DNA of 64,000 bases from Dehalogenimonas etheniformans (lineage in GTDB: Bacteria > Chloroflexota > Dehalococcoidia > Dehalococcoidales > Dehalococcoidaceae): assembly GCF_014672715.2 (NCBI RefSeq), contig NZ_CP058566.2, forward strand, positions 1,674,001 through 1,738,000. The letters are read 5' to 3'. Made by a program: the position numbers and the translations under genes. The notes beneath the pieces are model-generated. The model worked only from the letters and a program-made list of their open reading frames with translations. It did not search any database and was not told the DNA's origin. Below are positions 30,847-36,369 of this stretch, in pieces. Numbering within the stretch: the stretch's first letter is position 1; each line of letters starts with the position of its first letter.

Positions 30847-30982
30847 TGCTTGCGGGTGGTGCTTTGCTAGCCGTCGTTGATCCAGCGACGACCTTTAGGA
30901 CTCTTTGCTTTATGCTCAGCTTATCATGGTCAAGGAAGCAGTCATGCTGATGCAGAAGGGTAGATTCACTCCCCCGCAAGCA
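30847..30982 (+). ncRNA. Retron msr-msd non-coding RNA
   Basis: The leader of the reverse transcriptase gene has the retron layout. A perfect 10-bp a1/a2 pairing joins TGCTTGCGGG (30847-30856) and CCCGCAAGCA (30973-30982). Just inside is an msr hairpin CGTCG/CGACG (30872-30890) followed by ACCTTTAGGACTC, and then an msd-like stem (TGC-T-CAG..CATG with CATG-CTG-AT-GCA, 30913-30954). The a2 arm ends 22 bp before the RT start. The msd boundaries and the branching G are inferred. Confidence 0.75.
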
Positions 30983-31004
30983 CTTTTAATATCGAAAACA
31001 TTAA

Positions 31005-32477
31005 GTGAAAATAAGCCACAAATTAAATAGCCCACCCCAAGATTTGGCCAAGTCATTCTCGGCTCTAAAAGATGGGCGCGATGTCGCTAAACTCCTTGAA
31101 GTCGAGTATGCCCACTTGGTCTATCATTTGTACAAAATTCCACAAGAGGCTCGTTATTCTCAATTCAAAGTCAAAAAACGTGGCACGAATGAATTTCGCA
31201 CGATCTCAATTCCGAATGGTTCACTTAAAATAATCCAAACAAAACTCGTTCAAGTGCTTGAAGCCGTATATTTTCCAAGAATCGCAGTACATGGGTTCAT
31301 AAAGGGCAAAAGCATATTATCCAACGCCAGGATTCATGCCAACCAAAAATGGGTATTCAATGCTGATCTTGAAGGATTTTTCCCTTCAATTAACTTCGGG
31401 CGAGTCCGTGGTTTGTTTATTGCTAAGCCTTACGTGTTACCAGATAACGTTGCAACCGTCCTTGCCCAAATATGTTGCTACAACAACGAACTACCTCAAG
31501 GAGCACCCACATCTCCCATTCTTTCGAATATGGTTTGTGCAAAATTAGATAGCGAACTCCGAATTCTTGCGCAACATTCACGTTGTAATTACACACGATA
31601 CGCAGATGATCTTACTTTTTCTACATCTTCGCCCAAATTTCCTCCTCAAATCGCATCGATAGATGGAGATTCACAAAATACCATCATAGAACTCGGTGAA
31701 CAATTACGAACAATAATTGGAAATAATGGATTTTGCGTTAATGCCCAAAAAACACGACTTCAAACAAAAACCCACAGGCAAGAAGTCACTGGTTTAGTTA
31801 CGAATCAATTCCCGAATGTGAGTAGACAATTTATTCGCCAAGTGAGAGCTATGCTCCATGCGTGGGAGAAATTTGGCCTTGAAAAAGCCCAAACTGAATA
31901 CCTAATGTTATACCGCGATCAACAAAGAAATCCTTTAAAAAATGACCCCAAATACAGGAATGTTTCATTAAAAGATGTCATTTTGGGGAAAATCGGCTTC
32001 ATCGGTTCCATAAGAGGTAAGACTGACTTCATTTATATCAAATTATTGAATAAAGTTATCAGTCTATCTCCCGAACTGGCCAAACAAAAGGATAAAATAT
32101 CAGCTTTAATGTCTTCAGGCCCAGCCCCATTAATAAGGGTTACAACGGAAGGTCCAACTGATTGGATGCATATTGAAACTGCTTTTAACAACCTCCAATC
32201 AAAAGGACTGTTTGCCGGACTCGCCTTCGATTTGGTTCGGTACGAGCACGATATGGGACATTCCAGGCTATTGTCCATCTGTGAAGCATATGCAACATTA
32301 CCGATCCCTGGAGGACTCTCTCACGTATTTATTTTCGATAGAGATGAACCGCAAATAGTAAACAAAGTCAACGAACATGGCGATGTGCGAAAATGGCCGA
32401 ATAATGTGTATTCGTTCTCAATTCCAATACCTACCCATAGAACTAAAACACCCGAAATTTGCATCGAATTAAATTAG
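31005..32477 (+). CDS. Retron reverse transcriptase fused to TOPRIM domain (truncated by transposon)
   Basis: It makes msDNA from the upstream RNA. RT motifs: FNADLEGFFPSIN, LPQGAPTSPILSN, the catalytic YADD (TRYADDLTFST) and the retron-type VTGLVTN. The C-terminal part carries a TOPRIM-like domain (RVTTEGPTDWMHIE, HVFIFDRDEP), the architecture of retron Ec67. The frame starts GTG 31005 and stops at a TAG formed by the transposon junction (32475-32477), leaving 490 residues. Joining 32476 to 34886 restores a 594-residue protein, close to the Ec67 enzyme length. The 104-residue tail is lost, so defence function is probably broken. Confidence 0.88.
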   Translation: MKISHKLNSPPQDLAKSFSALKDGRDVAKLLEVEYAHLVYHLYKIPQEARYSQFKVKKRGTNEFRTISIPNGSLKIIQTKLVQVLEAVYFPRIAVHGFIKGKSILSNARIHANQKWVFNADLEGFFPSINFGRVRGLFIAKPYVLPDNVATVLAQICCYNNELPQGAPTSPILSNMVCAKLDSELRILAQHSRCNYTRYADDLTFSTSSPKFPPQIASIDGDSQNTIIELGEQLRTIIGNNGFCVNAQKTRLQTKTHRQEVTGLVTNQFPNVSRQFIRQVRAMLHAWEKFGLEKAQTEYLMLYRDQQRNPLKNDPKYRNVSLKDVILGKIGFIGSIRGKTDFIYIKLLNKVISLSPELAKQKDKISALMSSGPAPLIRVTTEGPTDWMHIETAFNNLQSKGLFAGLAFDLVRYEHDMGHSRLLSICEAYATLPIPGGLSHVFIFDRDEPQIVNKVNEHGDVRKWPNNVYSFSIPIPTHRTKTPEICIELN

Positions 32478-32489
32478 GTAACTATATAC

Positions 32490-32518
32490 TTGCGTGACCC
32501 ACTTTTGTATGCTATAAT
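32490..32518 (+). promoter_or_regulatory. Promoter of the transposon genes
   Basis: TTGCGT at 32490 and TATAAT at 32513 with a 17-bp spacer. The -35 box lies inside the terminal repeat. The transposase ATG follows 31 bp later after AGGGG. Confidence 0.7.
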
Positions 32519-32548
32519 GCGATTATCAAAAGTTAGGGGTCCAAGAAA

Positions 32549-33475
32549 ATGTTACCTCAATTCGATACTCTGGTTGGAATGATCAAGAAATTCCCCGATG
32601 AACAATCCTGTATTGACCACCTAACCGAAGTAAAATGGCACGAAAGCCCTTTTTGCCCCTACTGTGGTTCTCATAAGGTTTACCACTTCAAAGATCATCG
32701 TACCCATAAATGCGGTGACTGCCGAAAACGGTTCAGCGTTAAAGTGGGGACTATTTTCGAGGACACCAAAATCCCCTTGAAAAAATGGTTCATGGCTATC
32801 TACCTGATTACCGCCCACAAAAAGGGTATCTCATCCGTTCAACTTGGTAAGGATATTGGAGTTACCCAAAAGACCGCATGGTTCATCCTTCATCGGTTGC
32901 GTGAAGCCGCCAAAACCGAAGCCTTTAATGCTCCGCTCAAGAATTGTGTTGAAGTTGATGAGACTTACATAGGCGGCAAAGAAAAGAACAAACACGCCTG
33001 TAAACGGATTGGTGGCACTCAGGGTAGAAGCACCAAAACCAAAACCACTGCCGTTGTTGTCCTTCAAAGAGGCGGCGAACTAAGGGCATTCCAAACACCC
33101 GATACCAACCGGACAACACTTCAAAAACTTGTTGCTGAAAATGTCGCTCTTGGTTCTAAGGTCAACACCGATGAATGGGCTGGATACAAAGGACTTGAAA
33201 CCTTTTATCTCCATAGCAGTGTCAACCACATTGGCGGTCAATACGTGAATGGCGATGCCCATACAAACACAGCCGAAGGTTTCTTTTCACTGCTAAAGCG
33301 GGGCATCATCGGTATCTATCATTTCACCAGCAAAAAACATCTACAAAGATACCTCAACGAGTTCACTTTCAGGTATAATCTCCGCAAGGAAAGCAACGGG
33401 GCTGGCTTCTTATCCCTCCTCCAACATTGCAACCAGAGACTAACCTATAAAGGACTGATCGCCAATGAAGCGTAA
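32549..33475 (+). CDS. IS1595-family transposase
   Basis: A 308-residue transposase. The N-terminal zinc ribbon has CPYCGS and CGDCRKRF (about residues 32-60). The catalytic domain starts with VEVDETYIGGKEKNKH, continues with the second Asp in VNTDEWAGYKGL and ends with the Glu region NTAEGFFSLLKRGIIGIYH, then RYLNEFTFRYN. This order is typical of IS1595. It overlaps the methyltransferase gene by 11 bp, so the cargo is translationally linked to the transposase. Confidence 0.95.
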   Translation: MLPQFDTLVGMIKKFPDEQSCIDHLTEVKWHESPFCPYCGSHKVYHFKDHRTHKCGDCRKRFSVKVGTIFEDTKIPLKKWFMAIYLITAHKKGISSVQLGKDIGVTQKTAWFILHRLREAAKTEAFNAPLKNCVEVDETYIGGKEKNKHACKRIGGTQGRSTKTKTTAVVVLQRGGELRAFQTPDTNRTTLQKLVAENVALGSKVNTDEWAGYKGLETFYLHSSVNHIGGQYVNGDAHTNTAEGFFSLLKRGIIGIYHFTSKKHLQRYLNEFTFRYNLRKESNGAGFLSLLQHCNQRLTYKGLIANEA

Positions 33476-34415
33476 TATAACCATTGACCCGCCCCTCAGC
33501 CTACCAATGCCGTTCGATGAAGCTATTGAGCGGTTTGCCCGTGTAAACACTAAAGACGTTGAAGCCACAGTGTGTTCCCGTGATGCCGCTCCATTCGTAA
33601 AATGGGCTGGTGGTAAACGTGGGATTATTGATCAACTCGTAAACCGGCTCCCTGATAAGTTTGGCGAGTATTATGAGCCATTCGCAGGTGGAGCGGCTTT
33701 ATTTTTTGAGATAAGCGACAACCTCAAAAAGGCCTACATATCCGACAGCAACCTTGACCTAATGATTACCTATGCCGTGGTCAAAGATATGCCCGATGCC
33801 TTAATTAAAAAACTCGAAGATCATGCCAAAAAAGACAGCGAGGAATACTATTACAAGGTTAGGGCACAGCACAACCTGAAAGATGCAGTCGATACAGCGG
33901 CAAGGTTCATTTATCTGAATAAGACCTGTTACAACGGGCTTTATCGAGTCAATAAAAAGGGTGAATTCAATGTGCCCCGTGGCCGTTATGCCAATCCCGA
34001 TGTGGTCAATAAGGAAAACATTCTAGCGGCAAGCCAAGCCTTAAAAAAAGCTGAACTTCGATACAGGGAATTCGACAAGATAACACCTAAATCAGGCGAT
34101 CTGGTTTATTTCGATCCGCCGTATCATCCCACAGATACAGCATCGTTTACCCAATACACAAAGCTAGATTTTTCGGAAAAAGATCAGCAACGTCTCGCCA
34201 ACTTTGCATTGGAACTTCACCGACAGGGCGTTTACGTTATGCTTTCCAATTCGGATACGCCTTATATCCGCAACCTGTACAACAACACAGCTTGGAATCT
34301 AAGTGTAGTTTCTGCACCACGTCTGGTAAACTGTAAAGCCGAAGGCCGGGTGGCCGTCAAAGAATTGTTGGTGAGAAATTATGCCGGAAATGATCCAGGG
34401 CGGGACACAGGCTAA
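33465..34415 (+). CDS. Dam-type (D12 class) DNA N6-adenine methyltransferase
   Basis: A 316-residue enzyme with the SAM motif FVKWAGGKRGIIDQL (about residues 46-60), the segment YEPFAGGAALFFE and the catalytic LVYFDPPYHPTD (about 210-221). This order is that of Dam/DpnM, which often methylate GATC, but the specificity is not visible. It lies in the transposon between the transposase and a nuclease-like gene, overlapping both. It would protect host DNA from the partner nuclease. Confidence 0.93.
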   Translation: MKRNITIDPPLSLPMPFDEAIERFARVNTKDVEATVCSRDAAPFVKWAGGKRGIIDQLVNRLPDKFGEYYEPFAGGAALFFEISDNLKKAYISDSNLDLMITYAVVKDMPDALIKKLEDHAKKDSEEYYYKVRAQHNLKDAVDTAARFIYLNKTCYNGLYRVNKKGEFNVPRGRYANPDVVNKENILAASQALKKAELRYREFDKITPKSGDLVYFDPPYHPTDTASFTQYTKLDFSEKDQQRLANFALELHRQGVYVMLSNSDTPYIRNLYNNTAWNLSVVSAPRLVNCKAEGRVAVKELLVRNYAGNDPGRDTG

Positions 34416-34854
34416 CTACACAGGGACAGTACTAGAAAAGTTCGTTGCCTCTCGTTTGGATGAACGGGGATATACCTACGTCCCCTCTGTCCGATTTTTT
34501 GCCGCTCGTGCTTTGAAGCAGCCAATCTATACTAGACGCTGTGAAATCGGCAAGAACATCTACAACCTTAAACAGATTTGTGACTTTGTGGTGTACCATC
34601 CTGAAAAATGGCCAGATAACCTCATCATCGAATGCAAATGGCAACAAAGTGGCGGATCGGTCGATGAAAAGTTCCCTTATCTAGTTTTGAATATCAATAT
34701 GAAATACGAAACTCCAACCATCATCCTATTGGATGGAGCCGGTTTCAGGCGTGGAGCTGGTGCTTGGCTTAGACAGCAAGCGGGTAACGGCAACCTAAAA
34801 CAAGTTCTCGATATGTCTCAGTTTACAACTTGGGTAAACAAAGGCAATTTGTAG
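34381..34854 (+). CDS. PD-(D/E)XK restriction endonuclease candidate
   Basis: A 157-residue protein with a nuclease core: Asp in QICDFVVYHPEKWPDN and the ECKWQ motif in LIIECKWQQSGGSVDEK (about residues 80-96). This is the PD-(D/E)XK signature, and the GGSVDEKFPY tail is also common in such enzymes. It overlaps the methyltransferase by 35 bp, and its stop touches the transposon's right end. The context makes it a type II restriction enzyme. It is small for one, and its sequence target is unknown. Confidence 0.75.
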   Translation: MPEMIQGGTQANYTGTVLEKFVASRLDERGYTYVPSVRFFAARALKQPIYTRRCEIGKNIYNLKQICDFVVYHPEKWPDNLIIECKWQQSGGSVDEKFPYLVLNINMKYETPTIILLDGAGFRRGAGAWLRQQAGNGNLKQVLDMSQFTTWVNKGNL

Positions 34855-34885
34855 GGTCAAACACGTATATAGTTACCTTAAATTA

Positions 34886-35198
34886 TTCCGACGCTGAAAT
34901 CCAACGAATCGATTCCTCGGGGAGAAGGTTGTTTATCAACACGGAGTTTGATCATGATAGTCAGATGCACAATTCCCTTGACCTTTCATGTACTGATCGG
35001 AGCAAATTTCCCCGAAGTAAGGCGATTCGAATAATAGATGACAATGTGTTTGACCGCGCAAAACACAACGTGGCTTTAACAAAAAGAAAATTCGCCGAAT
35101 ACGTAACAACCGGTGAACCTAATTTTAATGATTTTGACTTTCTCCCATTTAAAGGAATATTTGATAACCTTAAAAGAATTATGGACAAAACAATCTAA
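34886..35198 (+). pseudogene. Detached 3' end of the retron RT-TOPRIM gene
   Basis: It begins directly after the right target duplication and continues the split protein as YSDAEIQRIDSSGRRLFIN through FKGIFDNLKRIMDKTI. Removing the transposon and one duplication puts it exactly in frame with the 31005 gene. A short frame with its own ATG at 34830 reads from inside the nuclease gene through this junction, but that start is accidental. Confidence 0.9.
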
Positions 35199-35301: not shown

Positions 35302-36369
35302 ATGACCATCCATAACGCCACCGTTTTTTGTGACGAATCAGGGAACACCGGTGCCAATCTACTTGATCGGGATCAGCCGCTATTTGTCGTCGGAGGCTGG
35401 TTGGTAAATGATAACTGTCATGAAATGGCGGAGGGTTTGGTAGAAGAGGCGCATAAACTGTTGCACCCACCCGACGGCGAACTTCACGGGGTTCGTCTTT
35501 TGCATACTAGCCGCGGCATCATGGGAATGCGTCAGCTAATCAGAGCGTTATTGATGGTCTACTGTGCCCCCATCTGCCAGATTATCGAAAAACGTTTTTT
35601 ACTCGCAGTAACACTTTATGAATTCTATCTCGATGTTCGTTTCAATAAAAATACGCCAACTTCTATAGATAATGATTGGGAACAAAAACACGTTTTTGGG
35701 GAGGCGGTATACCGGCTACCGGACGATCTTCTAACCCAATTTGCCCAAACGCACTCTTCGTTAGACAAACAACTTGTGTTAGAAACTCTTCGGGACATAA
35801 CTAGAGCTTTAACGCTCCAAAGTGACGACGATTTAGCAAGTCTATTGATAGGGTCAATCCCTTATATCGATGACATCATCGATTATCACAAATTCGGTAG
35901 AACCCATTTTGATTCAATTACTCTGAACGCACCAAATGTAGCTTCATTCCACATGTTTTTTCATAGCTTAGAACAAATAGGGCGTGAAGCTGAAATTCCC
36001 CGCTTAACCTTGATTCACGATGAAAACCCTCAATTCCAGAACACGTTCCAAAAAGTGTTCGAGCATTTTAGAGATGACCCCCGGGATGATTCTTATCGTG
36101 AAGGACCATGGAGTCAGGTATTTCTCGGGTTTAGGTCATTAAAAGACCTCAGATTCGCAAATTCTAAGAACGAACCTCTTTTACAAGCGGCCGATATTTT
36201 CACTTGTATGCTGCATAAATACGCTGTTAACATTTACAAAGGAATTCCCAACTCGCCAACATTAACCGAAGTAGCTGGCATGTTTCTCAAAGAACCACCG
36301 GAATGTCCGGCGATAGTCCGCATAATAACGTCGGATCAATTTTGCACTAAGTTAAAAACCTTCAAATAG
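35302..36369 (+). CDS. DUF3800 domain protein
   Basis: A 355-residue protein with the DUF3800 features: an early CDESGNTG (residues 10-17), FVVGGWLV and a late PLLQAADIFTCMLHKYA (about residues 295-311). The acidic positions suggest an RNase H-like fold with possible nuclease activity. DUF3800 genes are frequent in phage and defence regions, in line with the retron and R-M genes next door. It is separated from the retron end by about 100 bp, so it is probably an independent gene. Activity is inferred. Confidence 0.85.
   Translation: MTIHNATVFCDESGNTGANLLDRDQPLFVVGGWLVNDNCHEMAEGLVEEAHKLLHPPDGELHGVRLLHTSRGIMGMRQLIRALLMVYCAPICQIIEKRFLLAVTLYEFYLDVRFNKNTPTSIDNDWEQKHVFGEAVYRLPDDLLTQFAQTHSSLDKQLVLETLRDITRALTLQSDDDLASLLIGSIPYIDDIIDYHKFGRTHFDSITLNAPNVASFHMFFHSLEQIGREAEIPRLTLIHDENPQFQNTFQKVFEHFRDDPRDDSYREGPWSQVFLGFRSLKDLRFANSKNEPLLQAADIFTCMLHKYAVNIYKGIPNSPTLTEVAGMFLKEPPECPAIVRIITSDQFCTKLKTFK

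Follow-up and report, generated by a model that had tools for sequence, protein, structure and literature searches.

An IS1595-family transposon with a predicted restriction-modification pair interrupts the Toprim effector of a type I-C-like retron in 'Candidatus Dehalogenimonas etheniformans'

What becomes of a defence gene when a mobile element that brings predicted defence genes of its own lands inside it? The question is raised by a locus in a 64-kb stretch of DNA (64,000 nucleotides, hereafter the window) from the organohalide-respiring bacterium 'Candidatus Dehalogenimonas etheniformans' GP, in which a reverse transcriptase (RT)-Toprim gene is split by a transposon. The reading favoured here, to which we assign a probability of about 0.8, is that a type I-C-like RT-Toprim retron, itself horizontally acquired, was cut once by an IS1595-family transposon carrying a predicted type II restriction-modification (RM) pair.

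The geometry of the locus is that of a simple insertion. The element occupies positions 32477 to 34877 on the + strand (2401 bp) and has imperfect terminal inverted repeats of about 24 bp, GGTAACTATATACTTGCGTGACCC and GGTAACTATATACGTGTTTGACCC, which match at most positions. It is flanked by identical 8-bp target-site duplications, TTAAATTA, at 32469 to 32476 on the left and 34878 to 34885 on the right. The 5' part of the RT-Toprim gene (31005 to 32476, +) encodes the RT and the core of the Toprim domain up to the codon after the motif CIEL, and the interrupted open reading frame (31005 to 32477; 490 amino acids) closes with a TAG stop formed at the junction from the TA of the duplication and the first G of the element. 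The severed 3' part (34886 to 35198, +) is an open frame for residues 491 to 594, including K557, and joining the flanks without the element yields one RT-Toprim frame of 594 codons. A single IS1595-family insertion would have duplicated 8 bp and created the junction stop, so that the protein now ends at residue 490. The original prediction of a 2401-bp IS1595-family element with an 8-bp duplication is accurate to the base, as judged from the duplication, the inverted repeats and the transposase profiles, and the continuous frame that it foresaw after excision is recovered. The element is present as a single copy in the one-contig genome of 2,068,322 bp, and an assembly artefact is an unlikely source of the insertion because the assembly is a hybrid one, with coverage of 271x and 591x (PMC7729418).

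The identity of the interrupted gene is established by several lines of homology. The left open reading frame matches the Pfam family PF00078 (E 3.6e-23) and the PADLOC RT-Toprim_I-C profile (E 1.2e-137), and rejoining the flanks lifts the score against the latter from 458 to 514 bits and carries the alignment on from position 440 of the profile to position 527 (of 529), which assigns the tail to the RT-Toprim gene. In keeping with the original prediction, the tail of the rejoined protein aligns both with this profile and with homologues that run across the site uninterrupted, among them a Herpetosiphon RT-Toprim protein (45% identity across 99% of the length of the rejoined protein) and one from Chloroflexi AL-N1 (47%). 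The motifs of a retron-type RT, NAxxH, YADD and VTG, are intact, with N107, A108, H111, Y199-D202, T262 and G263 invariant and V261 nearly so across 20 aligned sequences. The E, DxD, E and K of a fused Toprim domain are complete in the rejoined frame only, the actual open reading frame being without the lysine. The gene had been described as Ec67-like, which holds for the type (I-C RT-Toprim) but not for the Ec67 sequence family: the rejoined protein scores 359.6 bits against the NCBIfam Ec67-family model NF038237, below the curated cut-off of 450, and is therefore a distant type I-C relative outside that family. By phmmer, only residues 21 to 298, the RT, align to Ec67 (Eco2). The AlphaFold model of the actual open reading frame is closest to Eco2 (PDB 9lm3; Z 32.9 over 355 residues), the rmsd of 10.5 probably arising from a differing placement of the two domains. 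No Pfam Toprim match was obtained for the effector, which was instead identified from PADLOC, from the PDB sequence of Ec67 and from its invariant motifs. Another PADLOC profile, RT-TIR_XII, scores 489 bits over the whole protein; this assignment was rejected, as the effector half of a homologue, taken alone, favours RT-Toprim_I-C (142 vs 61 bits) and as TEGxTD and DRD are both Toprim motifs. Elsewhere, two cyanobacterial plasmids (L011:2429-6008 and L012:2435-6050) encode RTs that are 52-56% identical to that of the window and have no Toprim; after each come a small gene and an ATPase gene, an arrangement that may represent a related retron type of three genes. A different retron-like RT, of 354 amino acids, is encoded in another Dehalogenimonas genome (L005; G005:C1:765648-766118).

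Adjoining the RT gene is a structured non-coding RNA with a1/a2 repeats (msr-msd; 30848 to 30981, +). The ends of its a1/a2 stem are GCTTGCGGG and CCCGCAAGC, and its msr hairpin is CGTCGTTGATCCAGCGACG. Rfam gave no retron match in the region, and a covariance model, R1, was therefore made from 13 homologous upstream regions, with the window left out. The segment 30848 to 30981 is the sole match of R1 in the 64 kb (21.5 bits; E 0.0082 under a rough calibration, and E 0.00078 when the local 6 kb is searched without filters), an independent confirmation of an RNA that was first found by eye through its inverted repeat. The upstream regions of the homologues have in common an extended a1/a2 stem and an msr hairpin whose loop is often TTGATCC-like, and 19 of the 23 predicted pairs are changed on both sides among the 13 homologues, a count that is unbiased for the hairpin and biased for the stem, whose ends were hand-picked for complementarity. 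The RNA ends 23 bases 5' of the RT start codon and is therefore intact. To judge from the sequence, msDNA may still be made, since both RT and RNA are preserved.

What the insertion cuts off is the last fifth of the protein, the part that completes the killer domain, with the break two residues past the last metal-binding glutamate (E488). Among 11 uninterrupted homologues the invariant Toprim set is E, G, D, DxD, E and K, which includes the E and D of TEGxTD, the DxD, the Glu of CIE and a lysine. The window equivalents are E382, D386, D445, D447, E488 and K557, and of these the truncated protein loses only K557. In Eco2, the metal ligands and the catalytic lysine are needed for defence, which is abolished by alanine changes (PMC12405507). 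The lysine is printed there as K562, which may refer to the OLD homologue: in the profile alignment the Eco2 lysine that pairs with K557 is K541 of the PDB sequence, in which residue 562 is an aspartate. Under either numbering the lysine sits in the lost tail. Because the residue removed is invariant and equivalent to the catalytic lysine of Eco2 and OLD Toprims, and the end of the fold is gone with it, the truncated Toprim would be catalytically dead; AlphaFold confidence in the actual open reading frame falls below 50 over its last six residues (485-490). The predicted outcome is that the effector is dead while the RT works and could still copy the retron RNA. The original claim of a disabled defence system would hold for the effector half, but not for the RT motifs and retron RNA, which are intact and whose survival makes this a natural effector-minus retron.

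Breaks are also found in homologues of the gene. In a homologue from a Leptolyngbya MAG (L032) the protein likewise ends right after CIEL, cut by an unrelated IS that has several other copies in that genome. This IS begins 4-5 nt beyond the codon for the homologous Glu, and the 8-bp target of the window comprises nt 1-8 after that codon; the Leptolyngbya contig ends inside the IS (L032:5429-5547). Such homologues may reflect selection against the effector, and a rival reading holds that loss of a costly Toprim is tolerated or selected, breaks gathering in the effector half while the RT-RNA half stays, with the RM cargo incidental. The overlap of the L032 break with the window's target argues for it, as do a Thermoflexales homologue whose sequence passes into a repeat at about residue 529 (L026) and a Brevefilum homologue with a frameshift near residue 471 (L090), and the isolated Eco2 Toprim is an RNase that is toxic and that msDNA is believed to restrain (PMC12405507). 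However, the sample is small and post hoc, the search patterns lie in the RT domain and favour genes with an intact RT, draft assemblies can mimic breaks, and two homologues depart from the pattern, one broken at its N-terminus by an early stop (L023) and the other internally deleted (L085). A cyanobacterial survey gave no further interrupted RT-Toprim. We regard selected or tolerated loss as a tentative explanation with the odds somewhat against it, and continue with a retron cut once by a transposon bearing a predicted RM pair.

The transposon encodes three proteins. Its transposase (32549 to 33475, +; 308 amino acids) matches NF033547 (E 1.1e-62), PF12762 and PF12760 and scores 211.7 bits against the IS1595 NCBIfam model (cut-off 75), and the inverted repeats and 8-bp target duplication agree with membership of that family, which a second element (L015, below) supports. 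The second gene (33465 to 34415, +) encodes a D12-class adenine-N6 methyltransferase (PF02086, E 6.4e-62; TIGR00571, E 2.4e-83) of the Dam/DpnM family, whose closest solved structure, DpnM (2dpm, E 6.7e-57), suggests a specificity for GATC. This tetranucleotide is slightly under-represented in the window, at 0.87 of expected, which is within the range of other palindromes. The third gene (34381 to 34854, +) encodes a PD-(D/E)XK nuclease (PDDEXK_11; PF20472, E 1.8e-39) with candidate catalytic residues D68, E84 and K86; the pattern D..(E/Q/S)xK is conserved, E84 varying to Q or S in three relatives. Sequence searches with the nuclease gave no solved relative, no DpnII-nuclease Pfam match and no close copy among phages. 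Its AlphaFold model is fairly confident (pLDDT 81) and best matches BstEII (Z 10.5 over 136 residues), other type II enzymes being listed too, and from its pairing with the methyltransferase it is predicted to be a restriction enzyme. The adenine methyltransferase and nuclease originally ascribed to the element are both there, and the notion that one defence system was disabled by another is sound in that an RM-type pair is present, but it presumes a restriction activity that is predicted. The element may supply restriction directed at GATC as a substitute for the retron defence that was lost, and it would persist by mobility and possibly by methyltransferase/nuclease addiction.

It could instead be proposed that the methyltransferase and nuclease serve the transposon, regulating transposition or cutting element-free sites, and not host defence. 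Both genes form an operon-like unit that overlaps the transposase gene and travels with it, and there is a known parallel in IS10, the transposition of which is regulated by Dam methylation. We consider this proposal unlikely, as the fold of the nuclease is nearest a type II restriction enzyme and as one locus (L110) has a methyltransferase-nuclease pair with no recognisable transposase in the stretch examined, as it should if the RM pair is self-sufficient.

The cargo, taken here as a predicted RM pair, has the same neighbours elsewhere. The order transposase-methyltransferase-nuclease recurs in an IMG/VR viral contig (L015/L117) at 80, 66 and 68% identity, and at 40-52% in a second viral contig (L115) and in another Chloroflexota genome (L111). 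The sister element in the first of these contigs (L015:3015-5683) has a 24-bp left end identical to that of the window element and its own target-site duplication, CTTATTTT, and the trio is therefore both old and mobile. An extra short open reading frame, encoding a product that begins MICTNEHRYLPDLEDLPESQAGEGRHRCAGCAYEQGYDDAFEG, lies between the nuclease and the right end of the sister element. No close copy of the terminal repeat was found in 400 Chloroflexota genomes, and no viral contig was found with RT-Toprim. A second IS1595 transposase in the same genome as the window (L124; G000:C1:2008808-2009605) is about 41% identical and has no methyltransferase or nuclease in the stretch examined. 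The IS1595 family is said to have been defined by Siguier et al. in 2009, under a title that reportedly names the frontier between IS and transposon. The literature searched (titles and abstracts) held no retron interrupted like that of the window and no IS1595 element with RM cargo, of which earlier reports may exist.

As to age, all 7 invariant family positions of the severed tail are preserved, as are 18 of the 19 near-invariant ones, and all three genes of the element are open. Stop-codon survival is a poor clock, since a tail of 104 codons has a probability of 0.34 of acquiring no stop even at 10% neutral divergence. The undecayed tail and identical duplication are consistent with a recent insertion, but the locus is missing from every congener searched, which leaves the insertion undatable. 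The insertion had been called clean and recent; clean it is, and recent is compatible with what is seen. The proposed search for an empty site or an intact gene led to uninterrupted homologues elsewhere, but to none in the species or genus: the 60 relatives searched have neither the element nor the RT-Toprim gene, and no same-lineage empty site. The congeners searched have no flotillin that could serve as an anchor for synteny, and a DNA search gave no close copy among plasmids. GC3 is 0.64-0.79 in two neighbouring host genes, 0.36 in the retron and 0.46-0.48 in the element, which suggests that retron and element were acquired separately, in two events. Directly downstream of the severed tail is a DUF3800 gene (35302 to 36369) of low GC3 (0.43), which is not a conserved partner of RT-Toprim (one weak match among 80 loci). 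That the truncated RT-Toprim is still a working retron, alone or with a separately translated tail (open reading frame 34830 to 35198), is most improbable, for although its RT motifs and RNA are intact and the tail is open and undecayed, the main product is without the invariant lysine, translation of the tail would have to begin at a TTG within the end of the element, where no ribosome-binding site is evident, and model confidence collapses at residues 485-490.

Each component of this locus is of a known kind, and what is notable is that an IS1595 element carries RM cargo, that this cargo also occurs in a virus and that the break point recurs. The interrupted retron provides a clean case in which a single event, the insertion of a mobile element with predicted RM genes, has broken a defence gene, and shows how an IS can enclose an RM-type pair between its ends and enter the genome of a virus. 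Since insertions have struck nearly the same codon twice, in separate phyla, selection for effector loss becomes testable. A bolder and decidedly doubtful extension is that IS1595 elements with a complete RM pair are widespread mobile defence cassettes between bacteria and phages, and also that insertions into retrons recur at the same catalytic hinge as effector loss with a kept RT is favoured; were this true, defence would turn over as one module broke another and directly took its place. The original prediction was right in outline, with the amendments that the effector is broken and not the whole retron and that the RM pair forming the second system is a prediction.

The nearest known counterpart is Eco2 (Ec67), a type I-C RT-Toprim retron (PDB 9lm3/9i2f) that likewise consists of an RNA followed by an RT fused to an OLD-like Toprim. 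Eco2 is the best structural match to the window protein and has the same catalytic motifs, but identity is only about 35% over structurally aligned residues and the effector is interrupted in the window. The RT-Toprim gene of Herpetosiphon aurantiacus plasmid pHAU01 (Haur_5150) has the same RNA architecture and aligns with the window protein through the tail, although it is uninterrupted and plasmid-borne. With IS1595 insertion sequences the window element has in common a transposase with a zinc ribbon and DDE_Tnp_IS1595 domain and A/T-rich 8-bp duplications, which are reported for another member of the family (PMC12561309), but it differs from them in its two-gene RM-type cargo inside the inverted repeats. 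With DpnII-type RM systems it shares a GATC-type methyltransferase, in the window a predicted one. Finally, the movement of RM genes with IS elements is an established idea, exemplified by PaeR7I (PMC3031569); in such IS-linked systems the genes have separate IS copies on either side or are linked to such copies, whereas the window pair lies inside one transposase-bearing element.
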